This document shows, in pieces, positions 1,848 through 32,300 of a DNA stretch of 34,379 nucleotides. Origin of the DNA: Verrucomicrobiota bacterium (GTDB taxonomy: Bacteria > Verrucomicrobiota > Verrucomicrobiia > Limisphaerales > UBA9464); the NCBI GenBank assembly GCA_947471985.1, contig CANIZL010000073.1, positions 1 to 34,379 on the forward strand. Reading direction: 5' to 3'. The notes under the pieces are model-generated. The model did no database searches, was not told the DNA's origin, and saw nothing but the letters and a program-made list of their open reading frames with translations. Positions within the stretch are counted from its first letter, which is position 1. Each line of letters begins with the position of its first letter. The position numbers and the translations under genes were made by a program.

Positions 1848-4800
1848 ATGAAGGCGGGCGCACTTCTTTCGCTCTCACGGATCCCCCGCACCGGGCCACC
1901 GGAACAGTTGCCAACCCGATGGCTCGCCACCGCGCTCGGGCTGGCCTATTTCGCTCTGGGGCGTTTGTCGGTGGAACTGACGGCACCGGACACGCAGGCC
2001 AGTCCCGCCTTCCTGCCTGCGGGCCTCGGCCTCTGCGCGTTTATGTTTCTGGGCGCCCGGATGTGGGCAGGCGTGTTTGCCGGGGCGCTGGCGATGAATC
2101 TTTTCGAGCTTTTCGCCGCCGGCCGAATGGATGATCCGCTTTCCTGGATATCGGTCGTGGTTTCGGCGGGCGGTAGCGCGTTCCGGTCCTGGATGGGAGC
2201 AATTTTGTTGGGCCGCTTTGCTTCTAATGGCCCCTTTCCGGAGACCCCAATCCAATTGGTGGGATGGGGAGGCATTCTTGCGGCCAGCTGTCTGCCCACA
2301 GCGATCCTTGGTGCCGCTTTCGTTCATCTCACCAACCAGGGCATTCCTTCCATCTGGGGAGTCGCGGTGACGTGGTGGAGCGGCGATTGGTTGGGGATTC
2401 TCATCGCGCTTATTTTTGTACGAGCCCTGGCTACGCTGCGCCAGCACCGCCCGAGACGGATCGGATTTTGGGCACATGGGGTGTTCCTGGTAGGCGCAGC
2501 CGCACTGGCAGTTGTTGGCAATACCTATCTTTCCATCACCGCCGGACTGGCCCTGGCGTGCCTGAACGTCTTCGCCTGCTCGGCGCGTCTTGGGTGTCGG
2601 CAGGCGGCATGGTTGATTGGCTCGACCTCACTGTCCTTGGCATTCCTGTTCGCGAATGACCGGGTGAGTCTGCCCTCGTCACCGTTCGCTTCGTTGATTC
2701 TGCCCCTCCACTTGCTGGTGTTGATGGCGAGTGCCGGATTGGGGCGTCGCTGGTCAACGCCGGTGGCGGGCATTTCGTGCCAGTGGAGTCAGGAGTTCCT
2801 CGTCAGTCGAATCAACCAACAGACCCTGCGCCAATCTTTGCCACTGCCCGTCGCGGTTCTTCTGGTGACGACGTTTGGTTCCGTCTTGCTCTTGTCGCTC
2901 GAGGCACGGGAAACCCGCCGGGACATGGAACAGCTGGCCACGCGAACCGAACAGCAATTGCGGAACGTGGTTTCGTCCACCTTGATTGTTCAAGACCATC
3001 AAGTCGCGACTTGGGCTCGCGACAAACATACGCCGGAAATTTGGCAGGAGGACGCGGTGCTGATGCTGGACACCTTTCCCTACGTCCAGGCCGTCCAGCA
3101 GCTCGATGCCAGCGCGACCATTCGACGGGTCGAACCCTTGGCGGGAAATGAGGCGCTGCTGAACACGAATCCCAACGGCGAGGCAGCCCGTCGCAAAAGG
3201 CTGGAGGACTCGCGCCGCCTTCGGAAGCCGGTGCTGTCGCCCTTTCTCAATCTGAAGCAGGGCGGAGTCGGTTTCATAAGCTTTGCGCCGTTGTTCAGCG
3301 GCGAACAGTTCGATGGATATCTCGCGCAGGTCTTCAAGCTGGAGAAGCTGATGGACAGCGTGTTGCTTCCGTTGAAATTCAGCACCAACACATTTCACGT
3401 CTCGCTCCGCGATAGCGGCGGTGCACGGTATGAGTTCGGTTTGCCCCCTGTCGGCGATGCGAAGAAATGGAGGGCAGGGCGTGATCTCGAGATTCGAGAT
3501 CAGGTCTGGCGCCTCAATGTGACGCCCTGTCGGCAATCGACTGTGCTGGCGCCGTGGCGGGCGTCCAACCTCGCCCTGCTGGCCGGATGCATCTTTGCGC
3601 CCTTGCTGGCCGTGATCCTCTTTTTAGGACTGCGCTCCTCGGCTGCGGAACGCGCGGCGGAAGCCGCCAATCGGGCCAAGAGCGATTTCCTGGCCACGAT
3701 GAGCCATGAGATTCGTACCCCGATGAACGGGGTGTTGGGCATGACCGAGTTGCTGCAAATGTCGCGGCTGGATACCCGCCAGCGGGAGCTGGCCGACAAC
3801 ATCAGTCGCAGCGGAAAGGCGCTGCTGGAAATCATCAATGACATTCTCGACCTCTCAAAAATTGAGGCGGGTCGCATGGTTTTAACGGAGGAGGAGTTCG
3901 ATCTGCGCCCGATGGTCGAGGGCGTGGCGGCCTTGTTGTCCCAATCCGGGCACGGCAAAACCGTTACCGTCCGGGCCGAGGTTGACGCGGCGGTGCCGGC
4001 GCGATTGCGGGGCGACGCCGGGCGTCTGCGGCAGGTGATCGTCAACCTGATGGGCAATGGCCTGAAGTTTACCCCGGCCGGTTCCGTCGTGGTGCGGATT
4101 CAGTCAGTGGAAAAGACTTCGGAGAAGGTGCGGTTGCGCTGGGAGATTGCCGACACCGGAGTGGGGATCGCGCCCGACAAATTGGCGCTCCTTTTTCAAC
4201 CGTTCCAGCAAGTGGATTCGTCGCCCACGCGACAACACGGGGGGACGGGACTGGGGTTGGTGATTTCGCGGCGCCTCGTGGAGTTGATGGGCGGAAGCAT
4301 TGGGGTGGAAAGTGAGCCGGGAAAAGGTTCGACCTTCTGGTTTGAAATTCCTCTGGCGATGGTCGCGGATCTCGCGCCCGCACCCGTGCCCGCACCCGTG
4401 CCCGCACCCGTGCCCGCACCCGTGCCCGCACCCGTGCCCGCACCCGTGCCCGCACCCGTGCCCGCACCCGTGCCCGCACCCGCCGCGCCCGCCGCGCCGG
4501 ACAGCTTGCGGGTATTGGTTGTCCGGGCCAACGAGCTTAACTCCCGGCTCTCCTTGCTGTCGCTGGAGAAACTCGGCTGCCGCGCCGATGCCGTCAGATC
4601 GGGCAAAGAGGTCCTGGATCGATTGCTACAAGTTCATTACGACGCGGTGCTCTTCGACGTGTGGCTGTCCGACATGGATGGCGCTGCGCTGGCCGCCGCG
4701 GTCCGCGCCCGGGAAGAGGGGGTTGTTTCGCGCCCGGTGCGCTTGATCGCCCTCGTTGCCGATGAGTCTATCCAAGACAGTAAGGGCACCCTGGCCGCCG

Positions 4801-4874
4801 GGATTGACGTCACGCTGGGCAATCGGCACGCGCTGGTTGAACTCAAGCAGGCCCTGTTCGGCTCCGGCGCTTAA
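1848..4874 (+). CDS. MASE1/CHASE-type membrane hybrid histidine kinase with degenerate C-terminal receiver
   Basis: This 1008-residue sensor kinase autophosphorylates a histidine on sensing a signal at the membrane. A MASE1-like multi-helix membrane domain covers roughly residues 22-300. A helix near 333-355, a CHASE-like extracytoplasmic sensor to about 565 and a closing helix at 575-595 follow. The HisKA domain has [10 protein letters not shown] with H620. The ATPase domain shows [12 protein letters not shown] (N733), DTGVGIAP and [13 protein letters not shown]. Eight APVP repeats link this to a C-terminal receiver (about 895-1005). That receiver keeps its phosphoacceptor D937 (VLFDVW) but has RANELN where an acidic pair is expected, V for the conserved T (IALVADE) and no conserved Lys. 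No Hpt domain or separate regulator gene follows, so the output pathway is unknown. Confidence 0.93.
4380..4475 (+). repeat. Eight perfect tandem copies of a 12-bp unit (gcacccgtgccc)
   Basis: The unit is repeated exactly eight times and encodes (APVP)8 between the kinase ATPase domain and its receiver. The 12-bp period preserves frame, so copy number can change by slippage without breaking the protein. A related tail (APAAPAAP) follows. Confidence 0.98.
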
Positions 4875-8016: not shown

Positions 8017-9174
8017 TCAGGTCCCGGGCTGGGTCGTAAATCGGTGAGGCGAAAACAGGGAAAGGTCATGCCGGGTGGATCCCTGGGTGGCCAGATCCGC
8101 CAGGATCTCTCCCACCACACTGCAGAATTTGAATCCGTGCCCGGAGAAGCCCGCGGCGTACGTCACGCGGGGGTGGTGCGGGTGAGGGCCCATCACGAAG
8201 TGCAGATCCGGAGTGCACGTGTAGAGACAGGTGGTGGCGTGGATCAAGGGGCCGTCGAGGTCCGGGAGAAATTGGCGGAGCGCTTCGCGGAGCGCGTTCT
8301 CGTCGGCGGGATGGAGTCCGCGATCCACGGTTTCCGCCGTGCAGATTTGGGCGTTCGGTAGACGGAAGAAGGCCGCCTTGACCCCGCCATCCGGTCCATC
8401 GAGAGCGGGGAAGCCATACGGTTGCAAGCCGTCGGCGCTTTCCCGGATGTAGATCGGGAAGCGCCCGGGTTGATACGCCGCGATGTCGCCCCGGGGTTGG
8501 AACCAATACAAGACTTGTCGCTCCACCCGTAGGGGCAGGTTCAATCCAGCCAGAAGATGCGGAGCCCAGGGACCGGGGGAGAGTATCAACTGATCGGCGG
8601 AATAGGTGCCCCGCGCGGTGGTGACGGTCACCCCGCTCCCAGAGGTGTCCCAGTGGAGGGCGGGTTCTTCAAAATGCAGTTCCGCACCCCGCGCCGTCGC
8701 AAGATCGAGATGGGTCTGGACGGCCTCCTCCGCCTGGACGACCCCGGCCTTGGCCTCAAAAAGACCGACCTCCGCATCGTCGACGTGGAACAGGGGAAAG
8801 CGCCGGCGGATCTCGCGGGCATCGAGAATCTCGTGGGGCAGGGAATGCTCGCGGGCGCTGAGCCAGCTGCCGTGCACGACTTCGGATTCGGGTCGCCCCA
8901 ACATCAAGCCACCACACAGCGTCAGCAACCGACGCTGGGAGGCCGTTTCGGCTTCCTCCCATAGTTCGTAGGCCCGGCGGAGCAGGGGGACGTACGAGGG
9001 GTGTTCGAAGTAAGCCTGGCGAATCACGCGGGTGCGGCCGTGGCTGGAACCGCGGGCGTGGGGTGAGGTGAATTGCTCGAGCCCCAGGACCCGCACGCCG
9101 CGTTGGGCCAATTGCCAGACGGTGGCACTGCCCATGCCGCCGAGGCCGAGGACGATGACTTGGTAGGGCTTCAT
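8017..9174 (-). CDS. solA: FAD-dependent oxidase, N-methyltryptophan/monomeric sarcosine oxidase type
   Basis: A 385-residue flavoenzyme, the normal length for this family, which oxidatively demethylates N-methyl amino acids to give formaldehyde and hydrogen peroxide. The N-terminus has the FAD Rossmann motif VLGLGGMGSATVWQLAQRG followed by an acidic residue (LEQ). C316 in TTCLYTCTPDLHF aligns with the cysteine that covalently binds FAD in monomeric sarcosine oxidase. The downstream GFSGHGFKF block is also typical. The start at 9174 is chosen because it overlaps the tatD-like stop as ATGA and places the FAD motif at the N-terminus; a longer frame exists. It is last in a four-gene overlapping operon. 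Exact substrate is uncertain, so the symbol is family-level. Confidence 0.88.
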   Translation of the reverse strand: MKPYQVIVLGLGGMGSATVWQLAQRGVRVLGLEQFTSPHARGSSHGRTRVIRQAYFEHPSYVPLLRRAYELWEEAETASQRRLLTLCGGLMLGRPESEVVHGSWLSAREHSLPHEILDAREIRRRFPLFHVDDAEVGLFEAKAGVVQAEEAVQTHLDLATARGAELHFEEPALHWDTSGSGVTVTTARGTYSADQLILSPGPWAPHLLAGLNLPLRVERQVLYWFQPRGDIAAYQPGRFPIYIRESADGLQPYGFPALDGPDGGVKAAFFRLPNAQICTAETVDRGLHPADENALREALRQFLPDLDGPLIHATTCLYTCTPDLHFVMGPHPHHPRVTYAAGFSGHGFKFCSVVGEILADLATQGSTRHDLSLFSPHRFTTQPGT

Positions 9175-10112
9175 ACCGTGGGAAATGCCGGGGCGGAGGT
9201 GAGCGGAAGGCACGCTCCGAAATCGCTGCCCGGAACCGGCGCGGTGGCGGCTTCCCGGGCCCCGAAGAGCCGCGTGAAGTTGTCGGACACTTGCGCGGTG
9301 AGTGCGGGCAAGGGTTGGCCCAGATGGCGGGCAAGTTCCGCGTAGATTTTGGGCAGGTTCGCCGGGTGATTCAGCGGCTGTCCGGTGCGGGGATCCGTCA
9401 GGGGATGCGCGTTCAAGTCGTCCGGCAAGCGTTGATCCGGGGCATCGGTTTCGATCAGAAGTCGTTCCGGCGGTACTTTGCGAAAGGCCTCACGCTGGCG
9501 GTCTTTGCGCTCGAGGAGAAAATATCCGGGAAAGCCAAAGTACGCACCGAGTCGGGCCAATTCCTCCACCATTTCGGCAGGCCCGCCGTAGCTGTGCAGG
9601 AGAAAACCGCGATCCAGACGCGGCGCGATGGCGAGCAGTTCGCGGAGCAGTCCCCAGGCTTGCAGGCAGTGCACGGTGGCTGGCAGCTGTCGGCGGGCGG
9701 CCAGGTGCCATTGCCAGGTGAAGGCTTCGACTTGTTCCACCCACGTGGCGGGTTCGTATCCGGCCAGGGCGGGGAAGCGGTGATTGCGTTGGTCAGTTGA
9801 AAGCGCCGGCAGCCAACGGTCGACCCCGATTTCGCCGATCACCGCCCCCGTCGTGGTGTCGAGAGCGTGAATCAAGGTCGATTGCCAGTGTTCGGTGCGC
9901 TCGGGAAGGTACCACGGATGATACCCGAAACTGGGTACGATCCCCGGCTGGGCCGCCGCGAGCCGTTGGACGTCGGGCCAATCATTTTCACAGGATCCGT
10001 TCACCACCCATCGCTGCACACCCGCGGCCCGGGCCGCGGACAACAAGGCGTCCTGCTGTCCGCCGAAGCGCTCGTCCTGCAGGTGATTGTGCGCATCGCA
10101 ATACGCCATCAT
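9171..10112 (-). CDS. tatD: TatD-family metal-dependent hydrolase/DNase
   Basis: A 313-residue TIM-barrel hydrolase. Metal ligands are visible: H8 and H10 in CDAHNHL, E94 in VIGEIGVDRW, a His in TVHCLQAWG, a His in LLHSYGG and the Asp in LLIETDAP. TatD proteins are 3'-5' exonucleases or DNases linked to DNA repair and quality control. The ATG at 10112 overlaps the sufE-like stop (ATGATG, with the TGA inside), which supports this start over the longer frame. Its own stop overlaps the next gene start by ATGA. Slightly longer than the usual 260-residue TatD, partly from a C-terminal tail. Specific substrate not inferable. Confidence 0.9.
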   Translation of the reverse strand: MMAYCDAHNHLQDERFGGQQDALLSAARAAGVQRWVVNGSCENDWPDVQRLAAAQPGIVPSFGYHPWYLPERTEHWQSTLIHALDTTTGAVIGEIGVDRWLPALSTDQRNHRFPALAGYEPATWVEQVEAFTWQWHLAARRQLPATVHCLQAWGLLRELLAIAPRLDRGFLLHSYGGPAEMVEELARLGAYFGFPGYFLLERKDRQREAFRKVPPERLLIETDAPDQRLPDDLNAHPLTDPRTGQPLNHPANLPKIYAELARHLGQPLPALTAQVSDNFTRLFGAREAATAPVPGSDFGACLPLTSAPAFPTV

Positions 10113-10579
10113 GGGGGCGGGATGTGTTGGCGGGCGAAGTCCCGGATCATTTCCCGCACGCGCCACACGGTGCGGCGTCGGCTCTCGGCCAGGTTAGTGC
10201 CGAGATTTAATTCGTTCAGGAACTCGGGGGCGTTCTCCAGGATCGCAGCGGGCGGTTGGCCGTGGTAAAAATCACAGATCAAGCCGCCAATGGCCTTCAA
10301 CGAAACCGCGTCGGAATCCAATTGGAACCAGCAGCATCCATCGCGGTAGTCGGGCACAAACCACAGGCGGACCTGACATCCCGGCACCCGGTATTCGTCG
10401 CGGCGCAATTCGGCGGGCAGCAGGGGGCGGGTGCGGGCTTGCTCGATCAGCCAGCCAAACCGGGCCTGCGGATCTGGAATGGTGGCCAGGACTTCCGCGA
10501 GGGCGGCGGAACGCGAAGGGAGGTCTGGGCGGGCGGCGATTTGAGCGGTAATCATCCGGGAGAAGTCCAGGTCAGTCAC
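10109..10579 (-). CDS. sufE: SufE-family Fe-S cluster sulfur-acceptor protein
   Basis: A 156-residue SufE domain protein. SufE accepts persulfide sulfur from a SufS-type cysteine desulfurase on a conserved cysteine; here it is C68 in YRVPGCQVRLWF, the canonical context. The helical C-terminal half (SLKAIGGLICDFYHGQPP) is also typical. The start is a GTG codon that overlaps the preceding zinc-ribbon gene by 8 bp (gtgactga). No sufS, sufB, sufC or sufD is in the window, so this is an isolated sufE in a mixed operon. Confidence 0.9.
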   Translation of the reverse strand: MTDLDFSRMITAQIAARPDLPSRSAALAEVLATIPDPQARFGWLIEQARTRPLLPAELRRDEYRVPGCQVRLWFVPDYRDGCCWFQLDSDAVSLKAIGGLICDFYHGQPPAAILENAPEFLNELNLGTNLAESRRRTVWRVREMIRDFARQHIPPP

Positions 10580-10868
10580 CGAGCAGCGATTTCAAGGCGT
10601 CCCGCGCGGCCTGTTCCCGCGATGAAGCCGGCGCACCGCCCGTCCTGGTGCGACGGGCAAATTGGAAGTACTCGCAGAAGTTGCTGCGATCCTTGTCCAG
10701 GACTGGCTCGGCGCGGCGATCGCGACATTGCTGTGCCACCGCGGCGTCGTAGGCCACACAGTTCAGGCAGCAACGCAGTTCGGCCCGACAACCGGGGCAC
10801 ACATCGGTGCGTCCCGGAGCAATCGACGAAGCCCACACCGCGCCACAGGCATGACAATGACGTTCCAT
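10572..10868 (-). CDS. Small zinc-ribbon protein of unknown function
   Basis: A 98-residue, cysteine-rich protein: CHAC near the N-terminus, CPGC, then CCLNC and two further Cys (QQCRDR and NFCEYF). The Cys pairs suggest one zinc ribbon plus a second metal-binding cluster. The pattern CxNCxxYD ... QCR ... DKxRxNFCxYFxF recurs in small uncharacterised bacterial proteins that I recall as a family without a known role. The ATG at 10868 puts the first CxxC at residues 5-8; a much longer upstream open frame lacks protein-like composition and is antisense to nothing informative, so it is rejected. First gene of the overlapping operon with sufE, tatD and the oxidase. Confidence 0.75.
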   Translation of the reverse strand: MERHCHACGAVWASSIAPGRTDVCPGCRAELRCCLNCVAYDAAVAQQCRDRRAEPVLDKDRSNFCEYFQFARRTRTGGAPASSREQAARDALKSLLGD

Positions 10869-10960: not shown

Positions 10961-13900
10961 CTACGGCGCGAACCAACCGTCGAGGAATTGCGCTTCCGAG
11001 CCTTCGTAGGTCGCCTCTGCCAGGTGCTCGATGCCGAGTTGATTGCCCCAGGAATACTGGATGATCAGGCGGCCGTTGTATTCGCAGAAGTCGATGTCGG
11101 AATTGTTTCGGTTGGCGGCGGTGACGATGCGGTTGCGTTGGGCATCGGTGAGTTTGGGTTCGGCGAAGAGTTGATCTTCCGCCGAGGCGCGCAGCACCGG
11201 ATTGTGCGGACTGTTTTCCCAGTGCTGCAGATCGCGCGAGCGGACCAGCCGCAGTTCGTAACCCTCGTGGGCTTCGAGGTAGAAGTCGTAGTACCAGCCG
11301 TTGCGGAAGCGCAGGGCGTGCGGCGCGGTGTAGCGATCCCGGGCGTAATTGCATTCCGGCGGGGTCAGGGTCCACGTCTTGAAATCCCGCGACTTGGCGA
11401 ACCGCGCGGTGAACGCCACGCCCGCTTCCGCCTGCGGCCGGTCGATCTCAAACATCATCACGAATTCATCGCGCGCCCGGCACACCGAGGTGTTGAAGAT
11501 GCCATAACGGCCCGCCGGCACCGCCGTCCAGGTCTCCCAGGATTTCAGATCCTTGGAGGCAAACACGTCGATCTGTCCGCGTCCCAGAGTGCCCGTGACG
11601 TACACCACACCGCCGTCCACGAAGGCGCTGCCAAATTCGTGGCCATCCGCAAAGGGCGCGGTGACCTCGCCGGTGGCGGGGTTGCGGAACCGGAAGTAAT
11701 TCGTCTTCCGCTGATTGTCCCAGTACTGCTGGCCTTCGCCCTGGCGCACCCATTCGAAACGCCACAGCGCGCCGTTGAAGACGATCGGTGAGGTCTCCAC
11801 CAGATCGAGATCCACCGTGCCGCGTTTGCGGATCAAGGGCCGTCCACTCGAGTCCGTCGGACCACCGCCGTGTTGCGCCAGTGCGGCCCGGGCTTCCGGG
11901 GACGCGGCATGCTGCCAGATGAAGTCCACGATGGGCGTGGAATCGTCCAGTCCGTGCGGGTGATGCTTCACCCCGGGTTTCCCGATGAGGGTGATCGAGC
12001 CACCCAGGGCGCGATACCGTTCGGCGATCAAACCGGTGTTTTCCGTCCACGGCACCACTTCATCGGCGTCGCCGTAAACGTGCAGCAGCGGCACCCTCGC
12101 GGCGGCGAGCCCAGCGAGGGAATCCACGGGATTGTGGGTGTAGGCTTTGGCTTCCTCGTCGTTTTTGAAGCCGTACTGTTGGAGGGTCAATTGCCAGTCG
12201 CGATCACTGCGCTGGCCCTTGCCGAAGCCGCCCGGCCAGCTCTTGAAATCGCACACCGGCGCATCGCCGTAGAGGCAGCCCACGCGGTCCGGGTGAGCCA
12301 CCGCCCAGTTGTAACAGTAGAGACCGCCGCGGCTGAGGCCGACGAGCGCCGGCTTGGGGTTCAGATCGTGCCGGGTGGTCAGGTTTTCATAAAGTGCGTC
12401 CCACGCTTGCACGGCGGCAGGCGCTCCCAGCAAATCGGGCACGCTCATATAAACGATATGAAATCCGCGGGCGAGCAGCGCGATGTCGGGATTGGGTTTG
12501 TGACCGAAGAATTCCCCGTGCCAGGCCCAGGGGCGACCGGGCGCCGGTTGGGGCGGCGCAACCACCGTCACCACTTTGCCATTCACTGCGAAATCATATC
12601 GATCAAAGCCATACCAACGCGTGCGTTTGCCCGGAAACTCCCCCGCGGCGAGGTCGTGCGCGGCGGCGGCGTGGCGGATCGCGGCTTGTTGGGCGGTGGC
12701 CAGCGGTTGACCTCGCGACATGCCCGGGCGGATGTGTCCGACGGCGGTGATCCACGCGTCTTTTTGCACCCGTTGCCGCGCCTGCACTTCCTTGAGGACG
12801 TCGCCGAGGCGGGGATTCAAGGCGTTCAAGCCGGCGGGAGTTTCCGGCAGGGGCGGGAGACCGGGGCCTTCGAGGGCCTGCACAAATTCCCGGGCCATCC
12901 GCCAGTGGCCAAGCGTGCTGGCATGCACGCCGTCACCGGCCAGCACAAAACCGGGTTCGGTCCGGCGTCGTAGCGCGAGATAGTCATTCATCGGTCCATG
13001 GAAATCGATGACCTGCCAGCCCCGCTCCCGTTGGGACAGCAACCAGGTGGAGTATCGATCCAGCACCTCGTTGTAGCCTTCGTAGGGCGACTTGTATTCG
13101 GTCAATCCCGCGGGCAGCGTGCGGCCCTTCAGGGGAATGGGATCGAACGTGGGCGGAGTGAGATGGATCACCCGCGCACCGATCGCGGCCGCCTGGGCGT
13201 GGAGTTGTTCCTGGCCGGTGCGGAAGGCGGCGGCGCGCTCGTCACCGTACGGATAATAGATGCCGTCGTTCATGCCGTAACACGCCACGACGACGGTGGG
13301 CTGGGTCTTTTCCAACACGCGTCCCAAACGTTCCAGCACCCCGGGGCGGGGGAAGGAACCACCCGCGTGTCCCGGCTCACTCAAGCCGGAAACGGTTTCG
13401 CTTGGGAGGCCCAGATTGATCCAGTCCACGCTGGCATTCGGGTGCCGCCACCGCAGCAGGGTCTCGGCGAATTCCACCCATTCGCCGCCGTAGGTGATGC
13501 TGTCCCCGAGAAAAACCACCCGTTGCGGGCCCAGCAGCGGCGAGACCTGCGCGCCTTCCGGGACGGGCACCAGGCGGATTTGTCGGATGTCCATGATCGC
13601 GCCCGCGGCCTTGCGTTGGGGGCGAATGGCGAGGTGATGCGTGCCGGGGATCGCGATTTCCACGCGGCCCACCTTGCGCGGGAGGAAAGATTGGAAGTGA
13701 CCAGTTTCCTCCACCACGAAGTCGAAACGGCGTCCAGCAATTTCCACGGCGACATCGCTGCCGCCCTGACCTTTGCCACAGCCTTGCCAGACCTCGATGT
13801 CATAAACGCCCGCCCGGCCGACGGGAAAAGTCCAATCGGCCCAGTCACTGGTTTCGACCCAGTAGCCGAGGCAGTTCTTGATGGCCTGCGGCTCGTAGCG

Positions 13901-14731
13901 CATGCGAACGCTGTGGGTGGTGGCATGGGCGGCGCGCAGCGTGATGACGCCGGCGGCATCGGCGGCACCGACCTCGCCCTCGGGCGCGGGACGCAGAACG
14001 ACCGACTGGAGATTCATGACGGCGGCACCTACGAGTTTCGGGCAACCCACCCGCACCACGAAGGGATCGGACTTGGCCAAATAGAAGGATCCGAGGGATA
14101 ACGCCTGATACGTGTTGCCGCTGCCGGTGGACGGGCGGGCGGCGGTCAGTTTTTCGCCGGCAATCTCGACCGTCACTTCGGTGCCGGCCCCGCCGTCCGC
14201 GGAGTAAACCACGTCCACGGAATAACGGCCCCAGCGCGTGGGCTTGAAATCCCACGTCACATAATCCGCCGCGTCGGTCCAGGAACCGATGCGTTGGTTC
14301 CCCAGAGCGGTTTCCCGATGCGCGGTGGTGCCGTGCACCTGGGCATCCGCGGCGGCGAAGACGATGCGGCCGTCGGACAGTTGCCCGCTGGCGTCGCCGG
14401 TTTCGACTTCGATCACGGCCGGCAGGACGGCCGGGGGATTGGTGGGCAGACTCAACTCCCAACGAGTGGCGTCGGGGTTGAAGTTCCACGCAACGGGCGT
14501 GCGGCGAGTGTCATTTATCCAGGTGGCTGCGAGGATCGACGGACTGGGCGCGGGCAGGAGCAGTCGCCCATCGGCGGGCCATTGGGCGACCTCGAGTCGG
14601 AGCTGCCCGGGCGAATTGGTCACCGCGGTGATGCGGCCCCACGACGGCGGGGCAGACGGTTCAGCGGCGAGCGCGGCCACGCCCAGAGCGACGGCGGCCG
14701 TCCAGGGGAGCAACCATTTGAAGGGAGACAT
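10961..14731 (-). CDS. Exported multi-enzyme fusion: sugar-binding-like domains, SGNH hydrolase, alpha/beta hydrolase, GH43-like propeller
   Basis: A 1256-residue protein with an N-terminal signal peptide (WLLPWTAAVALGVAALAAEP). Two jelly-roll carbohydrate-binding-like domains follow, at about 115-250 and 260-395 (each with a W-D/T-F ... G.Y.V pattern). An SGNH/GDSL hydrolase covers 400-630: GDSIT with S411, GMNDG, and the DGVH block with D600 and H603. An alpha/beta hydrolase covers about 700-960: GLSRGG with S800, an acidic residue at D888 or D890 (YGDADEVVPW), and H923 or H924. The C-terminal 280 residues resemble a GH43/GH32-type five-bladed propeller (FRNGWYYDFYLEAHEG, LVRSRDLQHWE). This suggests deacylation plus glycan cleavage of one substrate. 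Substrate and glycosidase activity are unproven. It may be transcribed just ahead of the zinc-ribbon operon (92 bp gap). Confidence 0.85.
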   Translation of the reverse strand: MSPFKWLLPWTAAVALGVAALAAEPSAPPSWGRITAVTNSPGQLRLEVAQWPADGRLLLPAPSPSILAATWINDTRRTPVAWNFNPDATRWELSLPTNPPAVLPAVIEVETGDASGQLSDGRIVFAAADAQVHGTTAHRETALGNQRIGSWTDAADYVTWDFKPTRWGRYSVDVVYSADGGAGTEVTVEIAGEKLTAARPSTGSGNTYQALSLGSFYLAKSDPFVVRVGCPKLVGAAVMNLQSVVLRPAPEGEVGAADAAGVITLRAAHATTHSVRMRYEPQAIKNCLGYWVETSDWADWTFPVGRAGVYDIEVWQGCGKGQGGSDVAVEIAGRRFDFVVEETGHFQSFLPRKVGRVEIAIPGTHHLAIRPQRKAAGAIMDIRQIRLVPVPEGAQVSPLLGPQRVVFLGDSITYGGEWVEFAETLLRWRHPNASVDWINLGLPSETVSGLSEPGHAGGSFPRPGVLERLGRVLEKTQPTVVVACYGMNDGIYYPYGDERAAAFRTGQEQLHAQAAAIGARVIHLTPPTFDPIPLKGRTLPAGLTEYKSPYEGYNEVLDRYSTWLLSQRERGWQVIDFHGPMNDYLALRRRTEPGFVLAGDGVHASTLGHWRMAREFVQALEGPGLPPLPETPAGLNALNPRLGDVLKEVQARQRVQKDAWITAVGHIRPGMSRGQPLATAQQAAIRHAAAAHDLAAGEFPGKRTRWYGFDRYDFAVNGKVVTVVAPPQPAPGRPWAWHGEFFGHKPNPDIALLARGFHIVYMSVPDLLGAPAAVQAWDALYENLTTRHDLNPKPALVGLSRGGLYCYNWAVAHPDRVGCLYGDAPVCDFKSWPGGFGKGQRSDRDWQLTLQQYGFKNDEEAKAYTHNPVDSLAGLAAARVPLLHVYGDADEVVPWTENTGLIAERYRALGGSITLIGKPGVKHHPHGLDDSTPIVDFIWQHAASPEARAALAQHGGGPTDSSGRPLIRKRGTVDLDLVETSPIVFNGALWRFEWVRQGEGQQYWDNQRKTNYFRFRNPATGEVTAPFADGHEFGSAFVDGGVVYVTGTLGRGQIDVFASKDLKSWETWTAVPAGRYGIFNTSVCRARDEFVMMFEIDRPQAEAGVAFTARFAKSRDFKTWTLTPPECNYARDRYTAPHALRFRNGWYYDFYLEAHEGYELRLVRSRDLQHWENSPHNPVLRASAEDQLFAEPKLTDAQRNRIVTAANRNNSDIDFCEYNGRLIIQYSWGNQLGIEHLAEATYEGSEAQFLDGWFAP

Positions 14732-15567: not shown

Positions 15568-17406
15568 ATGGCCCGCTATTCCATCGGCATCGACCTCGGC
15601 ACCACGCACTGCGCGGTCTCCTATTTCCCGCTCGACCACGAACGCGGACGCGGCACGGAACAGACCATGCTGGGAATCCCCCAGGTGACGTCGCCGGGTA
15701 CCGTGGAGGAACGCACGTTGCTGCCCTCGTTTCTCTATCTCGCGAACGCTCAGGAATTCCCCGCCGGCAGTCTCGCGCTGCCGTGGGATCCGCAGCGCTC
15801 GGGGACGGTTCTCGGTGAATTTGCCCGGACCCACGGCAGCAAGGTGCCGATGCGCCTGGTGGCCTCCGCCAAGAGCTGGCTCTGTCATGCCGGCGTGGAT
15901 CGCATGGGGCCCATTCTGCCGTGGCAGGCGCCGGCGGATGTGCAGCGCATCTCGCCGTTGGAAGCGTCCGCGCAGTATTTGGGGCACGTGCGCGCCGCGT
16001 GGAATCAGCGGTTTCCTGAAGCGGCCCTCGCCGAGCAGGAAGTGGTGCTCACCGTGCCAGCCTCGTTCGACGCCACCGCCCGCGACTTGACCCTGAAGGC
16101 GGCGCAACAGGCTGGTCTGCCGCAGGTGGTGTTGCTCGAAGAACCCCAGGCCGCGCTTTATGCGTGGACCGAGGCCATGGGGGAGAATTTTCGCAAACAC
16201 GTTCGCCCCGGAGCCGTGATCCTGGTCGTCGATGTTGGTGGCGGTACCAGTGACTTTTCGCTCATCGCCGTCACGGATCAGGGTGGGGAGGTGCAACTCA
16301 CCCGGGTGGCGGTCGGCGATCATATTCTGCTGGGCGGCGACAACATGGATCTCGCGCTGGCGCACACCGTGAATCAGCGGTTGGTGGCGGCGGGCAAGAA
16401 ACTCGATGCGTGGCAGTTTAACGCGCTGACGTTTGCGTGTCGTCAGGCCAAGGAGCAGCTCTTCAATCATCCGGAATTGCCCAGCGCGCCCATCGTGCTG
16501 CCGGGCCGCGGTTCGTCCCTGATTGGCGGGACGATCAAGACGGAGTTGTTGCGCGACGAATTGGCGCGGGTGCTGACGGACGGGTTCTTTCCCGCGACGC
16601 CGGTCACGGAGTTGCCCCAGACGGCGCGACGCACGGGCCTGGCCCAAATGTCGTTGCCCTATGCCCAGGATGCTGGCATCACCCGACACCTCGCCGCGTT
16701 TCTGACGCGTCAGGCCCGTGCCCTGGCCAGCACGCCGGATGCGCCGGTATCGGTGGCTGGGCAGAGCTTTGTGCATCCCACGGCGATTCTTTTCAACGGT
16801 GGCGTGTTCAAGGCGACCGCCCTCAAGGATCGGGTCTTGAACGTGCTCAACGGCTGGCTGGCGGCCGAAGGCGGACAACCGGTGCGGGAGTTGGAAGGTG
16901 CCGAGTACGATCTCGCCGTGGCGCGTGGTGCTGCTTACTACGGCTGGGTCCGGCAGGGGCACGGATTGCGGATTCGCGGCGGAACCGCGCGGGCGTACTA
17001 CGTCGGAGTGGAGTCGTCGATGCCGGCGATTCCCGGCATGGAACCGCCGCTGAAAGCGCTGTGTGTCGCGCCCTTCGGGATGGAGGAAGGCACTCAAGCG
17101 GACGTACCACCGCAGGAATTCGGCCTCGTCGTGGGAGAGCCCACGCGCTTCCGTTTCTTTGCCAGTTCCGTGCGCCGCGACGATCGCGTGGGCACGCTGC
17201 TGGACGAGGTTTTGGGTAACGATGAATTCGAGGAGATCGCCCCCATTGAAACCAATCTACCCGCCACCGAAGCCGCGGCGGGGCAACTCGTCCCGGTGAA
17301 TTTACAGGCCACGGTGACGGAGTTGGGCACGCTGGAACTTCGTTGCCTGGAGCACGGCGGTGCGGGTAATTGGAAGCTGGAACTCAACGTTCGGATGAAG
17401 GAGTAG
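15568..17406 (+). CDS. Divergent Hsp70 family protein (first of pair)
   Basis: A 612-residue DnaK-like chaperone ATPase. Phosphate-1 loop GIDLGTTHCAVSYF, phosphate-2 loop DVGGGTSDFS (D222) and adenosine-type motif FNGGVFKATALKDR are present, as is TVPASFDATARDLT. Insert LLPSFLYLANAQEFPAG and the SAKSWLCHAGVDR block mark the non-DnaK subgroup. The C-terminal 150 residues are short and beta-rich, ending in a GTLELRCLEH ... WKLELNV element also found in the second Hsp70; there is no long helical lid or EEVD-type tail. No DnaJ or GrpE is nearby. Co-directional with DUF2760 and a second Hsp70, so it likely forms a dedicated chaperone pair. Client unknown. Confidence 0.9.
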   Translation: MARYSIGIDLGTTHCAVSYFPLDHERGRGTEQTMLGIPQVTSPGTVEERTLLPSFLYLANAQEFPAGSLALPWDPQRSGTVLGEFARTHGSKVPMRLVASAKSWLCHAGVDRMGPILPWQAPADVQRISPLEASAQYLGHVRAAWNQRFPEAALAEQEVVLTVPASFDATARDLTLKAAQQAGLPQVVLLEEPQAALYAWTEAMGENFRKHVRPGAVILVVDVGGGTSDFSLIAVTDQGGEVQLTRVAVGDHILLGGDNMDLALAHTVNQRLVAAGKKLDAWQFNALTFACRQAKEQLFNHPELPSAPIVLPGRGSSLIGGTIKTELLRDELARVLTDGFFPATPVTELPQTARRTGLAQMSLPYAQDAGITRHLAAFLTRQARALASTPDAPVSVAGQSFVHPTAILFNGGVFKATALKDRVLNVLNGWLAAEGGQPVRELEGAEYDLAVARGAAYYGWVRQGHGLRIRGGTARAYYVGVESSMPAIPGMEPPLKALCVAPFGMEEGTQADVPPQEFGLVVGEPTRFRFFASSVRRDDRVGTLLDEVLGNDEFEEIAPIETNLPATEAAAGQLVPVNLQATVTELGTLELRCLEHGGAGNWKLELNVRMKE

Positions 17407-17443
17407 GCCCCGCTCCGTCATCCGGCTTCTGGATCCCCTTCGT

Positions 17444-20272
17444 TTGTCTGCTTCCCGCTACATTGTCGGCATCGACCTCGGCACGACCAATTGTGCGGTG
17501 GCGTATGCGTCCGCCGATGTCGAGGCCGTCGACGGGGTGCGTGATTTCCCGATCCCGCAATTGGAGCGGCCGGGGCAGGTGGCGGCGCTGTCGTTGTTGC
17601 CGTCCGCGCTTTACGTACCCAGTCCGCACGAGTTGCCGCCGGGAGCGACCGCACTGCCGTGGGGTCCTTCGGACGCAGTGTTGGTGGGCGAGTTTGCGCG
17701 CTGGCAGGGAGCGCGGGTGCCCGGGCGCCTGGTGAGTTCGGCGAAGAGTTGGTTGTGTCACGACGGGGTGGATCGTTCCGCCGCGATCCTGCCGTGGGGC
17801 GCCCCTCCGGAGGTGGCGAAGGTATCGCCCACGGAGGCCACGGCCCGCTTGCTGGCGCACCTGGTCGCGGCATGGAATCATGCGTACCCCGAGGCGCCCT
17901 TGGGCGAACAGGAAGTGGTCATCACGGTTCCCGCTTCCTTTGATGAAGTCGCGCGGGCCTTGACCGTCGCGGCGGCCCAGCAGGCGGGATTGCAGCGGCT
18001 CACGCTCGTCGAGGAACCCCAGGCGGCGTTTTACGATTTCACGGCGCATCACCCGGAGCAACTCGCCGAAACCTTGCGGGACGTGCGCCTGGTTTTGGTA
18101 GTGGATGTTGGCGGTGGCACCACCGACTTCACGCTGATTGCGGTGCAGGCCACGGAGACCGGGCCGGATTTGCGCCGGATCGCGGTGGGCGATCACCTGA
18201 TGCTGGGCGGCGACAACATGGACGCGGCCCTCGCCCGACGCGTGGAAACCCAGTGGGCGCAGGACGGGCGAAAACTGAATCCGGCGCAATGGTTGCAACT
18301 GGTCCAGTCAGCGCGCGGCGCGAAGGAAGCTCTGCTCGGAGCCACTCCCGCCGAACGGCACGGCATCGCGGTCGTAGGTGCCGGAAGTCGGTTGTTGGCC
18401 GGAACCCTTTCGGCGGAACTCGGCCGCGAAGAAACCGAAGCGGTGATTCTCGACGGATTTTTTCCGGTGGGCACCGCGGATGAAGTTCCGCGGCGCGGCG
18501 CCCGGGGTGCCTTGCAGGAACTGGGATTGCCCTACGCGCAGGATGCCGCGATTACCCGGCACTTGGCCGCGTTTTTACGCCAGCATGCGGCGGCGGCGTG
18601 GACGGCGTTGGGGCGTGGGGATCTTGGGGCGGGATTGCCCCGGCCCGACGCCATTCTGTTGAACGGTGGCGTGTTCAATTCCCCGAAGCTCACCGCGCGA
18701 CTGCGGGACGTCCTTTCTTCGTGGTGGCCGGACGCACCTTCGTTGCGCCTACTGCCGCATCATTCGTTGGAACTGGCCGTCGCCCGCGGCGCGGCGCATT
18801 ACGGGCGGGTGCGCCACGGCTGGGGCCGACGCATCGGAGGCGGGGCGGCCCATGCGTTTTATGTCGGCCTGGCGGGCGAATCGGGGCCGCGTGCGGTTTG
18901 CCTGATTCCGCGCGGTCAGGAGGAGGGTGCCGCGGTGGACTTGAATCAACGTCCGTTCGAACTGGCCCTGGGGCAGCCGGTCCAGTTTCCACTGTATACC
19001 ACCAGCTCGGATCGCGCGGATCGGCCCGGAGATCTGGTGTCCGTGGGTGAGGACTTTCGACCGTTGCCGCCGATTCACACGGTGTTGAAGAGTGCGGGCA
19101 TTTCGAAGGGCGGCGTGCCGGTCCACCTGCGCGCGACTATCACCGAGGTGGGAACCCTGGAACTCTGGTGCGTGGCGCAGGATCGACCCGAGCGATGGCG
19201 ATTGGAATTCGAACTCCGCGGCGCGCCAGCTCCGACCGATCCCGCTGCGGTTCGACCGGTCACGGAATCCCTGCCGCGACGCTTTGCCGACGCCCAGGCG
19301 GCGATCCAGCGGGTCTACGGTTCCGGGGGAGCGGGGGATGGGACGAAAGAAGCACGGCAATTGGGCCGAACGCTGGAGCAGTGGGTGGGTTCGCGGGAAA
19401 CCTGGCGGGCTCCCGTATTGCGCGAACTCTGGAGCCTGCTCCATGCCGGCGCCAAGGCCCGGCGGCGATCGGTGGATCACGAGCGGGCTTTTTACCAGCT
19501 CGCCGGCTATACGTTGCGCCCCGGCTATGGCTATCCTTTGGATGCCTGGCGTTGCGAGCAGATGTTTCCGCGTTTCACCGAAGGCGTGACGCATCGCGAC
19601 GGGCCGCTGGTCTGGAACGACTTTTGGATTCTTTGGCGTCGCCTCGCCGGCGGCCTGACGGAAACGCAGCAACAGGAGATCTACGCGTACCTGAAGCCGC
19701 ATCTCGCCCGGCGCATTTTGCCGCACAAATCCAAGTCCCTGCCCAAACCGAAAGGGGTTCAGCCCGAAGGCTTGGATGAAATGGTCCGACTTGCGGCGGC
19801 GTTGGAGCAGATCGGCGCGGGCGACAAGATGGAGCTGGGACATTGGATCGTCGAACGCCTCAAGGATCCCACTGCGGCGGCGGGTCCGTGGGCCTGGGCC
19901 TTGGGGCGTCTGGGCGCGCGCGAGCCCCTGCACGGCAGTCCGCATCGGACGGTCCCGGCGGCGCAGGCGGCTGCCTGGCTGAGTTTTCTTTTGGGCTTGA
20001 ATCTGCGCGGCACGGCGGGCGCCCTGTTTGCGGTGACCCAACTTGCCCGCCGCACCGGTGATCGCGCGCGGGATGTCGACGACGCCCTGCGCGACGCGAC
20101 GCTCGCTGCCCTGCGGACGGCGGCGGCGCCGGAGCGTTGGCAGCAGATGGTCCGGGAAGTGGTGGAATTGGATGCCGAAGAAGAAGCCCAGGCCTTGGGG
20201 GATTCCCTCCCGCTGGGGCTTCGATTGGAGCCGGTTTCGGTTTCCTCTCGAACGGGCAGGTCCGCCAGCTGA
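17444..20272 (+). CDS. Hsp70 family protein with C-terminal DUF3731-like extension (second of pair)
   Basis: A 942-residue relative of the preceding protein: GIDLGTTNCAVAY, SAKSWLCHDGVDR, VVDVGGGTTDFTL (D221) and LNGGVFNSPKL. After a shared beta element (GTLELWCVAQ ... WRLEFELR) a long extension from about residue 600 to 942 carries conserved-looking helices (HAGAKARRRSVDHERAFYQL, RPGYGYPLDAWR, WNDFWILWRRLAGGLTE); I assign it to DUF3731 with moderate confidence. The start is a TTG 37 bp after the first Hsp70 stop; the GIDLGTTN loop then falls at the correct distance, and no ATG is available upstream of it. The two Hsp70s probably arose by duplication and then diverged in their C-termini. Confidence 0.9.
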   Translation: MSASRYIVGIDLGTTNCAVAYASADVEAVDGVRDFPIPQLERPGQVAALSLLPSALYVPSPHELPPGATALPWGPSDAVLVGEFARWQGARVPGRLVSSAKSWLCHDGVDRSAAILPWGAPPEVAKVSPTEATARLLAHLVAAWNHAYPEAPLGEQEVVITVPASFDEVARALTVAAAQQAGLQRLTLVEEPQAAFYDFTAHHPEQLAETLRDVRLVLVVDVGGGTTDFTLIAVQATETGPDLRRIAVGDHLMLGGDNMDAALARRVETQWAQDGRKLNPAQWLQLVQSARGAKEALLGATPAERHGIAVVGAGSRLLAGTLSAELGREETEAVILDGFFPVGTADEVPRRGARGALQELGLPYAQDAAITRHLAAFLRQHAAAAWTALGRGDLGAGLPRPDAILLNGGVFNSPKLTARLRDVLSSWWPDAPSLRLLPHHSLELAVARGAAHYGRVRHGWGRRIGGGAAHAFYVGLAGESGPRAVCLIPRGQEEGAAVDLNQRPFELALGQPVQFPLYTTSSDRADRPGDLVSVGEDFRPLPPIHTVLKSAGISKGGVPVHLRATITEVGTLELWCVAQDRPERWRLEFELRGAPAPTDPAAVRPVTESLPRRFADAQAAIQRVYGSGGAGDGTKEARQLGRTLEQWVGSRETWRAPVLRELWSLLHAGAKARRRSVDHERAFYQLAGYTLRPGYGYPLDAWRCEQMFPRFTEGVTHRDGPLVWNDFWILWRRLAGGLTETQQQEIYAYLKPHLARRILPHKSKSLPKPKGVQPEGLDEMVRLAAALEQIGAGDKMELGHWIVERLKDPTAAAGPWAWALGRLGAREPLHGSPHRTVPAAQAAAWLSFLLGLNLRGTAGALFAVTQLARRTGDRARDVDDALRDATLAALRTAAAPERWQQMVREVVELDAEEEAQALGDSLPLGLRLEPVSVSSRTGRSAS

Positions 20273-29385: not shown

Positions 29386-32300
29386 CTATTGCCGCGCCCG
29401 AAAGAAACGCATTGATCGATTGGCGCGCAGAGGATCGGCGTAGACCGCCGGATTGGTGGGCGCCGACCAACTCGCGAGCGGAAACCAGTCCGCCAAATTC
29501 GGCGAGCCTTCCAGTACCAGTGGGATTCCCGCTCGATTGGAGATCGACAGGAGAATATGACCGTCAACAATCTGCGGTGACTCCACAAATCGCGGAGCGG
29601 TCGGGGTCGCATTGATCGCGATCTTGGCAGTAAAATAAGCGCCGGATTGATCCGCCAAGACGCCCGGGGCCACCAGGAAATCCACCGCCGTTCCCACGGC
29701 CGTCCGGGCACTTATGGAAAACGTGACTCCCGTGAGGTCGTCCGGTGCGATCGTCGCGCTCCAGATGGGCACCCCGTCCGCGGCGATGGTTCCGGTGATT
29801 GGCGCCACGGGAATGGAATCCCATTTCGCGAATCGTCCCGCAATTTGTACCGTTCCCGTGACGGTGCTTCGCCAGCGCCGTACCGGCCACTTTTCGAGAC
29901 CGGCGGGATTATTGGTGGCCAATTCCGGGGACAGGACGCCCAAGGGACGCATACCAGTTGCCCAAATGGAGGGTTCTCCCGCCTGGGAAATCAGGTATGC
30001 CGGAATGCCATAGGTGGCGGCTCCCGCCACCGGCAGTGGTTGAAACTCGGTTGCGGCATACTTTCCGTCGGCGTCTGCCGACTTATTCCAGTACCCGTAA
30101 CTCCACGCCGAGCTGCCGGGCAGCAGGGTGAAATCACCAACGGAATCCGCTATTTCACCCGGCAGCGCCGGCGGTAGCTCCTCTCCGGCCAGCATCTGGG
30201 TCCAGACCGGAAGGTAGACGGGAAGCCCGTTGGCGTCGCGCACCTGGGGGATATCGTTGATGGTCGCACCGTGGTAACCGATTTCCCCATTTACGTTTGG
30301 GAGCGGCTCCAGCGTGGTGGTGAAGGCGTGCGAGAAGGAATAGGGCGGCACATTGGTGGCTATATTTATAACGGGGCCAAAGCGCATCGTCCCGGTGGCC
30401 TCCCAATTGGGGATCTGCTCGCCGTCAATGAATTCATCCGGATCCAGGTAGTGGGTGAAACCAAAGAAACGTTCGAGAGGCGTCGCCGACGGATGAAAAT
30501 TCCACGCGGCCGGCTGGTGTACCGCGGGGGAGAAATCACCGCCGGCGAATTGCAAGACCCGTTTGACCTCGTGAAGTTTTCCGATGAATCCCGCATAACC
30601 CGAACCCTGCGAATGTCCCGCCAGCCGGAACCGATCCCAGGCGAGTGCATTGGTCCAAAGGATGTTGGTCCGCGTCAGGAATTGGCCCCAGCCCTCGTCG
30701 GGTGCCGTGGTGTTCAGCCACTGCAGGAAGGCCGCCAGACGAAATTCGATGCTGTTGGGGCGGGAAACATTCGCCCGGGGCGTCGTATCGGAGCCCGTCA
30801 GGAATTCATAACGGACTTCCTCATAACAGCTGGTGTCCGCTTCATTGCCGCAATAGTTCGCCAGGGCGGTGTCGTTCTCGTAGGTCAGGGCCACGACGTG
30901 AAATCCCAGGTTCGCTGCGTTTTCGGAGAAGTAGGTGAAGGTGGAGGGAACCCCGCCGGTTCCCGGCAAAACCACCACCAACTCATTCCGCCACGGTCCA
31001 TTGGTGGAGACGAACGCGAACTGGGGCGAATTCTTTCCGGAGATTCGCGCATCGGTGGTCTTCGGGGTAATTGCGTGGGTGATATAGGTCCCGGGCAGGG
31101 GTGACTTCGGTTCTTCTTCCGCCAGTGGGATCACCTCAATCCGCAACATTTCCGGCCATCGGGGGACCGTGATGTTCGTCAGGACAATCAAGCCATCGGC
31201 GGCAACCTGAATGGTGCCGGATTGGACGATGGAATTGTTGGCGACCCGCCGCGTGACCCAATTGAGCTGACTGCCGGTAACCGGGAGGAATTTCTGCGGG
31301 CGCCGCACGGCGAGGTCGGAGCGAAGAGAAGGAAACGGGCAGGCATCGACGGCGGCGAAGTTGGCTCCCGCGCCTTCAAGAAAGACAGTGCATGCCCAAT
31401 TGGTGGAGGAATCCACGAGGTCATCCGGCCGCCAATCGTAGTAGCCGCCCCAGGTTCCGTGATCGTCCCCATTGGCGGGATTGTTGATGCACGCGTTAAC
31501 GCCAATTCCGCCCAGCCCGCCCGGACCGGGATCCCCATGGCTGGGGTATTTCTGAAAATTGAAGAAGGCGGGGAAGGATTGATTGGACCGATAGCGCGCG
31601 AGACTGGGCCCATCATCCCGCCGCGTCTGTTGGGCCAACGTCGCGACCGAAGTGGCATCCACCCAGTAGTCCTGCCATTCATTCAACCCGTGCTTGCGGA
31701 GGTCCCAGAAGAACGCGTCCCCCCAGCCCTCGGTGTCTGCTTGGCGCAAGACGGACACCATGTCCGGTCCCCAGTGCATGGCTGGATTTTGATCGCATTT
31801 CCCGGCATAAATGCGGGTAAATGCGTAGTCGCGCTGGGTCCCACTCAGCGGGGCGGTGAACGGAAACAGATCGAGGAGATGGACCGTTGCTCCGAAACGA
31901 TTGGTCCGATTGGTCGGCAGATTCAGAGTTTGTTCGCCCTGCATGGCCGCCGTCGTTGGCGATTCAAAGTAGCGTTGGCCGCAATTGAAGAGTTCCACGG
32001 AGGAAAAAAGCTCCGGGTGCATTCGGGCCAGGTGATTGGCGCCGACCGAGCCGGCGCTGTGTCCGAGCAAAGCCACCCGATGCGCATCCAGGGACAAGGC
32101 CTGCTGAAACCAGTGCAAGGCCCATTCCAACTGCCGATGGGTGTAGTCGATGATGACGGATTTCGCGGGCGGATTGAAGGGAACCATATTTGTCGGCACG
32201 CCGCTGAAACTGACCCCGACGAAAGGGTCGAATCCTGCCACATAACCAAACCACCGGGAGTTCTCCCCGGACGGGACGCCATTGATTACGCTCCAGACTT

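Follow-up and report, generated by a model that had tools for sequence, protein, structure and literature searches.

We found that the window, a stretch of 34,379 nucleotides from a Verrucomicrobiota bacterium (contig CANIZL010000073.1 of assembly GCA_947471985.1), encodes one protein of 1256 aa (10961..14731, minus strand, a single uninterrupted frame) that we read, with a probability of roughly 0.6, as a secreted de-esterase with several catalytic domains, acting on a decorated glycan. It is one intact exported chain with binding-like domains, two intact hydrolase sites and a propeller. A preliminary description of this DNA had given the same coordinates, and the strand was found to be minus. 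The glycan de-esterase is the best reading because two intact serine esterases stand together with binding domains in an exported chain, and the nearest SGNH structures deacetylate. In such a protein the N-terminal beta-sandwich and two CBM6/CBM35-like domains would hold the glycan, the SGNH domain, with its observed fold and residues, would remove O-acetyl groups as its presumed substrate through a Ser411-His603-Asp600 triad and a G449/N488 oxyanion hole, and the alpha/beta hydrolase (ABH), with the observed residues Ser800-Asp890-His923/924, would remove a second ester group of a presumed type. The propeller, whose conservation is observed and whose catalysis is putative, would then bind or cleave the sugar so laid bare, using an active site different from that of GH43, and the fusion would keep both de-esterifications side by side on the same decorated polymer.

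Upon examining the translation by eye, we observe a likely signal peptide at residues 1-23 (14663..14731, minus strand, as for all modules below), judged from a charged start, a hydrophobic stretch and an AxA site near residue 22, in support of the single exported chain that had been proposed. AlphaFold models were built from alignments of the protein's own and locus sequences (mean predicted local distance difference test score, pLDDT, of 83 for residues 20-690 and 88 for residues 660-1256), and they resolve the chain into a beta-sandwich, two jelly rolls, an SGNH domain, a helical linker (residues 623-690, 12662..12865, partly of low confidence), an alpha/beta hydrolase and a five-bladed propeller, confirming all the folds previously claimed. 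The search of each segment against Pfam bore out the SGNH and DUF5077 domains (Lipase_GDSL_2 at 407-610, E 1.2e-13; DUF5077 at 140-221, E 1e-7), whereas the matches of the ABH and of the propeller remained below the cut-off (Peptidase_S9/Abhydrolase_1 at 793-923; Glyco_hydro_43 at 1133-1177). Additionally, an NCBIfam scan of the protein returned no family above the cut-off, and the ABH and propeller modules have no Pfam or NCBIfam family above it.

The SGNH hydrolase spans residues 403-622 (12866..13525; Pfam PF13472), and it is very probably an active ester hydrolase. The translation places S411, D600 and H603, as well as S800 of the ABH, exactly where the preliminary description had them, and the sites it called intact-looking are conserved in every aligned relative. 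Conservation was counted over the window and loci L002-L067 (27 SGNH, 34 ABH and 32 propeller rows), with 20 regions chosen by length standing outside these counts. The identical pair L021/L045 was entered a single time. We find S411, G449, N488, D600 and H603 invariant in 27/27 rows, G449 being assigned to Block II by position under the SGNH block definition given in an extract of PMC9487903. The nearest solved structure is BT4096 (7br2; Z 21.8, root mean square deviation, rmsd, 3.7, 262 aligned, 22% identity), followed by the acetylxylan esterase Axe2 (4jko; Z 18.7, rmsd 2.7, 189 aligned), and 7TOG/7TOJ, SGNH relatives of Fll1, are also among the fold matches (Z 15.5-16.5). According to an extract of the review PMC8808336, BT4096 deacetylates diltiazem, and a carbohydrate-esterase role is supported because the nearest structures are this deacetylase and an acetylxylan esterase. 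A relative of the SGNH domain in Paenibacillus has genes of a sugar ABC transporter and a GH2 gene in its vicinity.

The ABH (residues 691-948, 11888..12661) carries the features of an alpha/beta hydrolase fold esterase, with a GxSxG elbow formed by G798-L-S800-R-G802 in a conserved GLSRGG motif, followed by D890 and H923/H924; S800, D890, H923, H924 and H926 are invariant in 34/34 aligned rows. It is likely an active esterase on carbohydrate, as indicated by its fusion elsewhere to CE15, CE7, GH29, GH95, GH18 and SGNH domains. In other Verrucomicrobiota we observe it in one open frame with SGNH, CE15 (2 open reading frames, ORFs), CE7, GH95, GH29+BD-FAE and GH18. Pfam on 19 of 20 ORFs from ABH regions chosen for their long open frames, and therefore a selected set of partners and not a frequency, recognised GDSL in 13, CE15 in 2, CE7, GH95 and GH29+BD-FAE in 1 each, and nothing in 1. 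The individual fusions outside the GDSL group are L109 with GH95, L110 with GH29+BD-FAE, L115 and L116 with CE15, and L124 with CE7. By BLAST, an SGNH domain is visible upstream of the ABH in 25 of 55 distinct ABH ORFs, excluding the window, of which 22 are SGNH+ABH, 2 also have N-terminal domains and 1 has the full architecture. These partners support work on carbohydrates, not on one single polymer. A Phocaeicola record also contains the ABH, with 47% identity, and the ORF concerned gives two GDSL matches. This ORF (L149, 11284-13413) has the module order SGNH-ABH-SGNH. Its record, from Phocaeicola massiliensis, is labelled as a plasmid, yet the flanking housekeeping genes (IMP dehydrogenase, RecQ, ClpX, MutL) make it look chromosomal.

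The propeller (residues 960-1256, 10964..11854) has the five-bladed beta-propeller fold of GH43. Its structure matches are ties or near ties (Z 21-22.6) between GH130-type 9erg (Z 22.6, rmsd 3.3, 258 aligned), BT_0996 5mt2 (Z 21.6) and the GH43 structures 4qqs (Z 21.1, rmsd 3.3, 248 aligned) and 7erl (Z 21.0). On the isolated propeller, Glyco_hydro_43 scores 21.6 bits, under the curated cut-off of 32.2, and weak matches to this family occur in 25/32 propeller members. The alignment of 32 rows comprised the window and 31 relatives, after the partial L061 was dropped. We found 15 invariant columns at identities to the window down to 26%, with no exception across the rows at E979, N1080, E1095, D1116, R1164, N1209, S1211, D1212, G1229 and Q1231. 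D1116 is part of a repeated SxD motif whose role looks structural, and besides the SxD motifs three carboxylates are invariant, giving an acidic set of E979, E1095 and D1212.

In GH43, blades I and III carry Asp, and the Glu of the YAEGP/YPEAPH motif (5jow, 5z5d) at the start of blade IV is, we take it, the general acid. Upon aligning a profile of the 32 rows to solved GH43 enzymes, we find that this Glu falls on profile position 182, which is A1136 in the window and is Gly in 24 and Ala in 8 rows, and no acidic residue occurs at positions 1135-1138 in 32/32 rows. Blade I has E979, and blade III has N1080, Asn in 32/32, where GH43 has Asp; the blade register behind these assignments is likely and not proven, the blades being pseudo-symmetric, and the profile gave a second register too, in which blades III-IV pair with blades I-II of 5jow and 9fj8. 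The catalytic Asp of GH130, which sits in an EDPR motif, aligns in one local alignment, to 9fj8, to a column that is G/A/P/C in 32/32. On the residues at the GH43 positions we reject the propeller as a GH43 enzyme, while a GH130 enzyme keeps some probability. The label "GH43-like" that it had been given is right for the fold, of GH43/GH130 type, and wrong for the catalytic residues, which are not kept while the other acids E979, E1095 and D1212 are invariant, so that the GH43-type cleavage proposed with it finds no support.

Because the GH43 acids are gone and a different acidic set is invariant, the propeller would be a non-GH43 enzyme or a binding domain. It is probably functional, though not as GH43, and may cleave or only bind; we put even odds on a working enzyme. 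If so, its active site would most likely be built around E979 and D1212 with N1080, R1164 and Q1231. The rest of the chain may be as we favour while the propeller, having lost its glycoside hydrolase activity, only binds glycan or serves as a scaffold without catalysis, and to this we give a real, if minor, chance. The Gly/Ala at the general-acid position, the absence of acids at 1135-1138, the Asn of blade III and the non-acidic GH130 column, the last from a single alignment, all fit such a loss, whereas the 15 invariant columns with three non-SxD carboxylates look like an active site, and the propeller occurs mostly as a single-domain gene, which one would not usually expect of a module that only binds. 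A working GH43-type glycosidase, with a chain that deacylates and cleaves for example arabinoxylan, appears improbable. The weak Glyco_hydro_43 matches, the fold matches to 4qqs and 7erl and the existence of Fll1, an SGNH+GH43 enzyme characterised according to an extract of PMC12247016, speak for it, but the catalytic positions are not kept and GH130 and BT_0996 fit the fold equally well.

The ABH, too, admits another function, as an S9-type peptidase or general lipase by which the protein would act on glycoproteins or lipids, a reading that we consider unlikely. Among 25 ABH members, Peptidase_S9 is the Pfam family matched by 23, PF00756 Esterase by 5 (best E 5e-4) and CE15, AXE1 and BD-FAE by 0/25, these being Pfam's models and not CAZy's. 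S9 peptidase structures also match within the overall range of Z 20-21.7 (8wt1: Z 21.7, rmsd 2.8, 226 aligned), but the esterase 3i6y (Z 21.4) and the acetyl esterase BTAxe1 7dwc (Z 20.6) are near-equal, with S-formylglutathione hydrolases and BTAxe1 together at Z 20.6-21.4. Furthermore, the N-terminal propeller of S9 enzymes is absent, and in the ORFs scanned the family-assigned fusion partners are domains of the type found in carbohydrate-active enzymes (CAZymes). The reading of ABH and propeller together as an S9 peptidase was rejected, since the propeller here is C-terminal and five-bladed. We find it very hard to believe that the long chain arose from an error of assembly or of reading frame. 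The source assembly consists of 180 contigs; however, chance or an assembly accident is dismissed because the G+C by codon position (67/50/78%) is coding-like and an independent contig of a metagenome-assembled genome (MAG), L002, keeps the module order at 64% identity, and six shuffled yet intact proteins form a supported group.

Several observations weigh against a glycan de-esterase. The gene lies outside any polysaccharide locus, and the fusion partners of the ABH imply chemically different substrates (chitin-like, fucosylated, lignin-linked). Most stand-alone propeller ORFs begin without an evident signal peptide, so that for the propeller family the glycan need not be extracellular. The context clues on the substrate conflict, comprising fucosidases, a PL11 rhamnogalacturonan lyase, GH18, CE15 and sulfatases. 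As a point in favour of a glycan, the PL11 gene follows the propeller gene in two congeneric genomes (L099 by Pfam, L138 by similarity), and beyond this pair no recurrent CAZyme-recognised neighbour was found at 28 propeller loci, where only some neighbour clusters were identified by Pfam. Feruloylated xylan and a sulfated algal polymer had been suggested as substrates, and no specific pointer to either emerged in the context examined. Overall, of the one-chain deacylation and cleavage of an esterified glycan first proposed, the carbohydrate-esterase role is supported by the SGNH structures and the ABH fusions, and the GH43-type cleavage is not.

When searching for relatives among 387 genomes of the phylum, with the source genome counted, we observe a match to some part of the protein in 213 and to the propeller in 38. 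A scan of GTDB contigs, which relies on short exact patterns and therefore yields lower bounds, gave at least 6 loci, all titled Verrucomicrobia-related MAGs. Among them only L002 has the D-SGNH-ABH-propeller order (64% identity over query residues 117-1254), so the architecture recurs in one other Verrucomicrobia MAG; its ORF has 1231 aa, the match begins at residue 106 or 117, and the first beta-sandwich was not seen there. L003 and L004 are without propeller, and L005 consists of ABH and propeller. In L007 a chitinase-type GH18 domain stands between the ABH and the propeller and a DLDWE motif looks intact; the frame is open throughout (8037-10637), and the propeller is 80% identical to that of the window. 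In the ABH tree the window, L002, L003, L004, L005 and L007 fall in one supported group (97/96), indicating that the modules were reshuffled among close relatives. ABH and propeller are fused in L002, L005 and L007, whereas in G058 they are separate genes lying side by side with 15 nt between them, and none of the 29 other propeller loci aligned (L039-L067) has an ABH in the same ORF. Searched against plasmids, the propeller returned no match.

The non-catalytic N-terminal part, matched in 65 of the 387 genomes, again counting the source genome, has three domains rather than the two sugar-binding-like ones first described. The beta-sandwich (about residues 28-120, 14372..14650), all-beta in the model, resembles the part of GH29 alpha-L-fucosidases that follows their catalytic domain, with weak phmmer matches to 9rzy/9rzx (E 0.0045/0.015), and residues 31-250 are matched by GH29-type ORFs of the same phylum. 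Together with the first DUF5077/CBM35-like domain (about residues 125-250, 13982..14359; PF16871 and, weakly, CBM_35_2), it matches the C-terminal part of long ORFs, of which L081, the only one scanned, proved to be a GH29 fucosidase. The second DUF5077-like/CBM6-like domain (about residues 255-392, 13556..13969) has matches at the C-terminal ends of two ORFs encoding sulfatases (L078, L080), and its jelly roll (residues 260-394) has the fold expected of CBM35/CBM6-like modules (CBM6 2cdp: Z 16.8, rmsd 2.0, 123 aligned; CBM35 2w47: Z 15.0, rmsd 2.5, 128 aligned).

The neighbours in the window are TatD, oxidoreductase, Hsp70-like, sensor kinase and ABC transporter genes. The Hsp70-like genes form an adjacent pair (15568-20272, plus strand) in a non-canonical DnaK-type arrangement, the second of which carries DUF3731 at its C-terminus (E 1e-85), and the sensor kinase (1848-4874, plus strand) has MASE1, CHASE, HisKA, HATPase and a C-terminal receiver domain. 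A second very long protein (29386-33243, minus strand, 1285 aa) has weak alpha/beta hydrolase matches at about residues 250-420 (Esterase PF00756, E 0.002; S-formylglutathione hydrolase 7yvt, E 0.009), and most of its length is without family.

The ABH may represent a new family of esterases and the propeller a new family of propeller enzymes, both being modules widespread in a phylum of bacteria known for the breakdown of complex polysaccharides, and from their natural fusions one can directly propose which activities cooperate. More tentatively, the protein may be a three-activity enzyme, whose ABH would found an as yet unclassified carbohydrate esterase family that Verrucomicrobiota attach to many different CAZymes (SGNH, CE7, CE15, GH18, GH29, GH95) and whose propeller would found a family active on glycosides, set apart from GH43 and GH130 by an active site with a Glu in blade I and an Asp in blade V.

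In the open-access papers searched, no characterised enzyme with this domain combination or order was found, in agreement with the preliminary description; close kinds, namely SGNH+GH43 and three CE domains, are already characterised according to the extract of PMC12247016. Multicatalytic esterase chains are thus known, and what appears to be new is this combination, with two unclassified modules. Fll1 of Flavimarina sp. Hel_I_48 (SGNH 'CE3' + GH43_10 + CBM91) likewise joins an SGNH acetylesterase, a GH43-fold propeller and a binding module, but in that extract it has no alpha/beta hydrolase, and it differs from the present protein, whose propeller is without GH43 catalytic residues, in having a GH43 that works as a xylosidase. 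Fll4 of the same strain (CE6 + two CE1, with acetyl and feruloyl esterase activity) also carries several different esterase domains in one chain, although its three CE domains belong to other families and, as described there, it has no propeller. BeCE15A-Rex8A, a CE15-GH8 fusion in an extract of PMC8417218, is similar in type as an esterase and glycoside hydrolase in one chain, and differs in its families and in being encoded in a polysaccharide utilisation locus. BT4096 is the closest solved structure to the SGNH module, yet its chain of 450 residues has no ABH and no propeller, and the five-bladed propellers of GH130, GH43 and BT_0996 share the fold of the one described here, which keeps neither the catalytic residues of GH43 nor, it appears, those of the other two.

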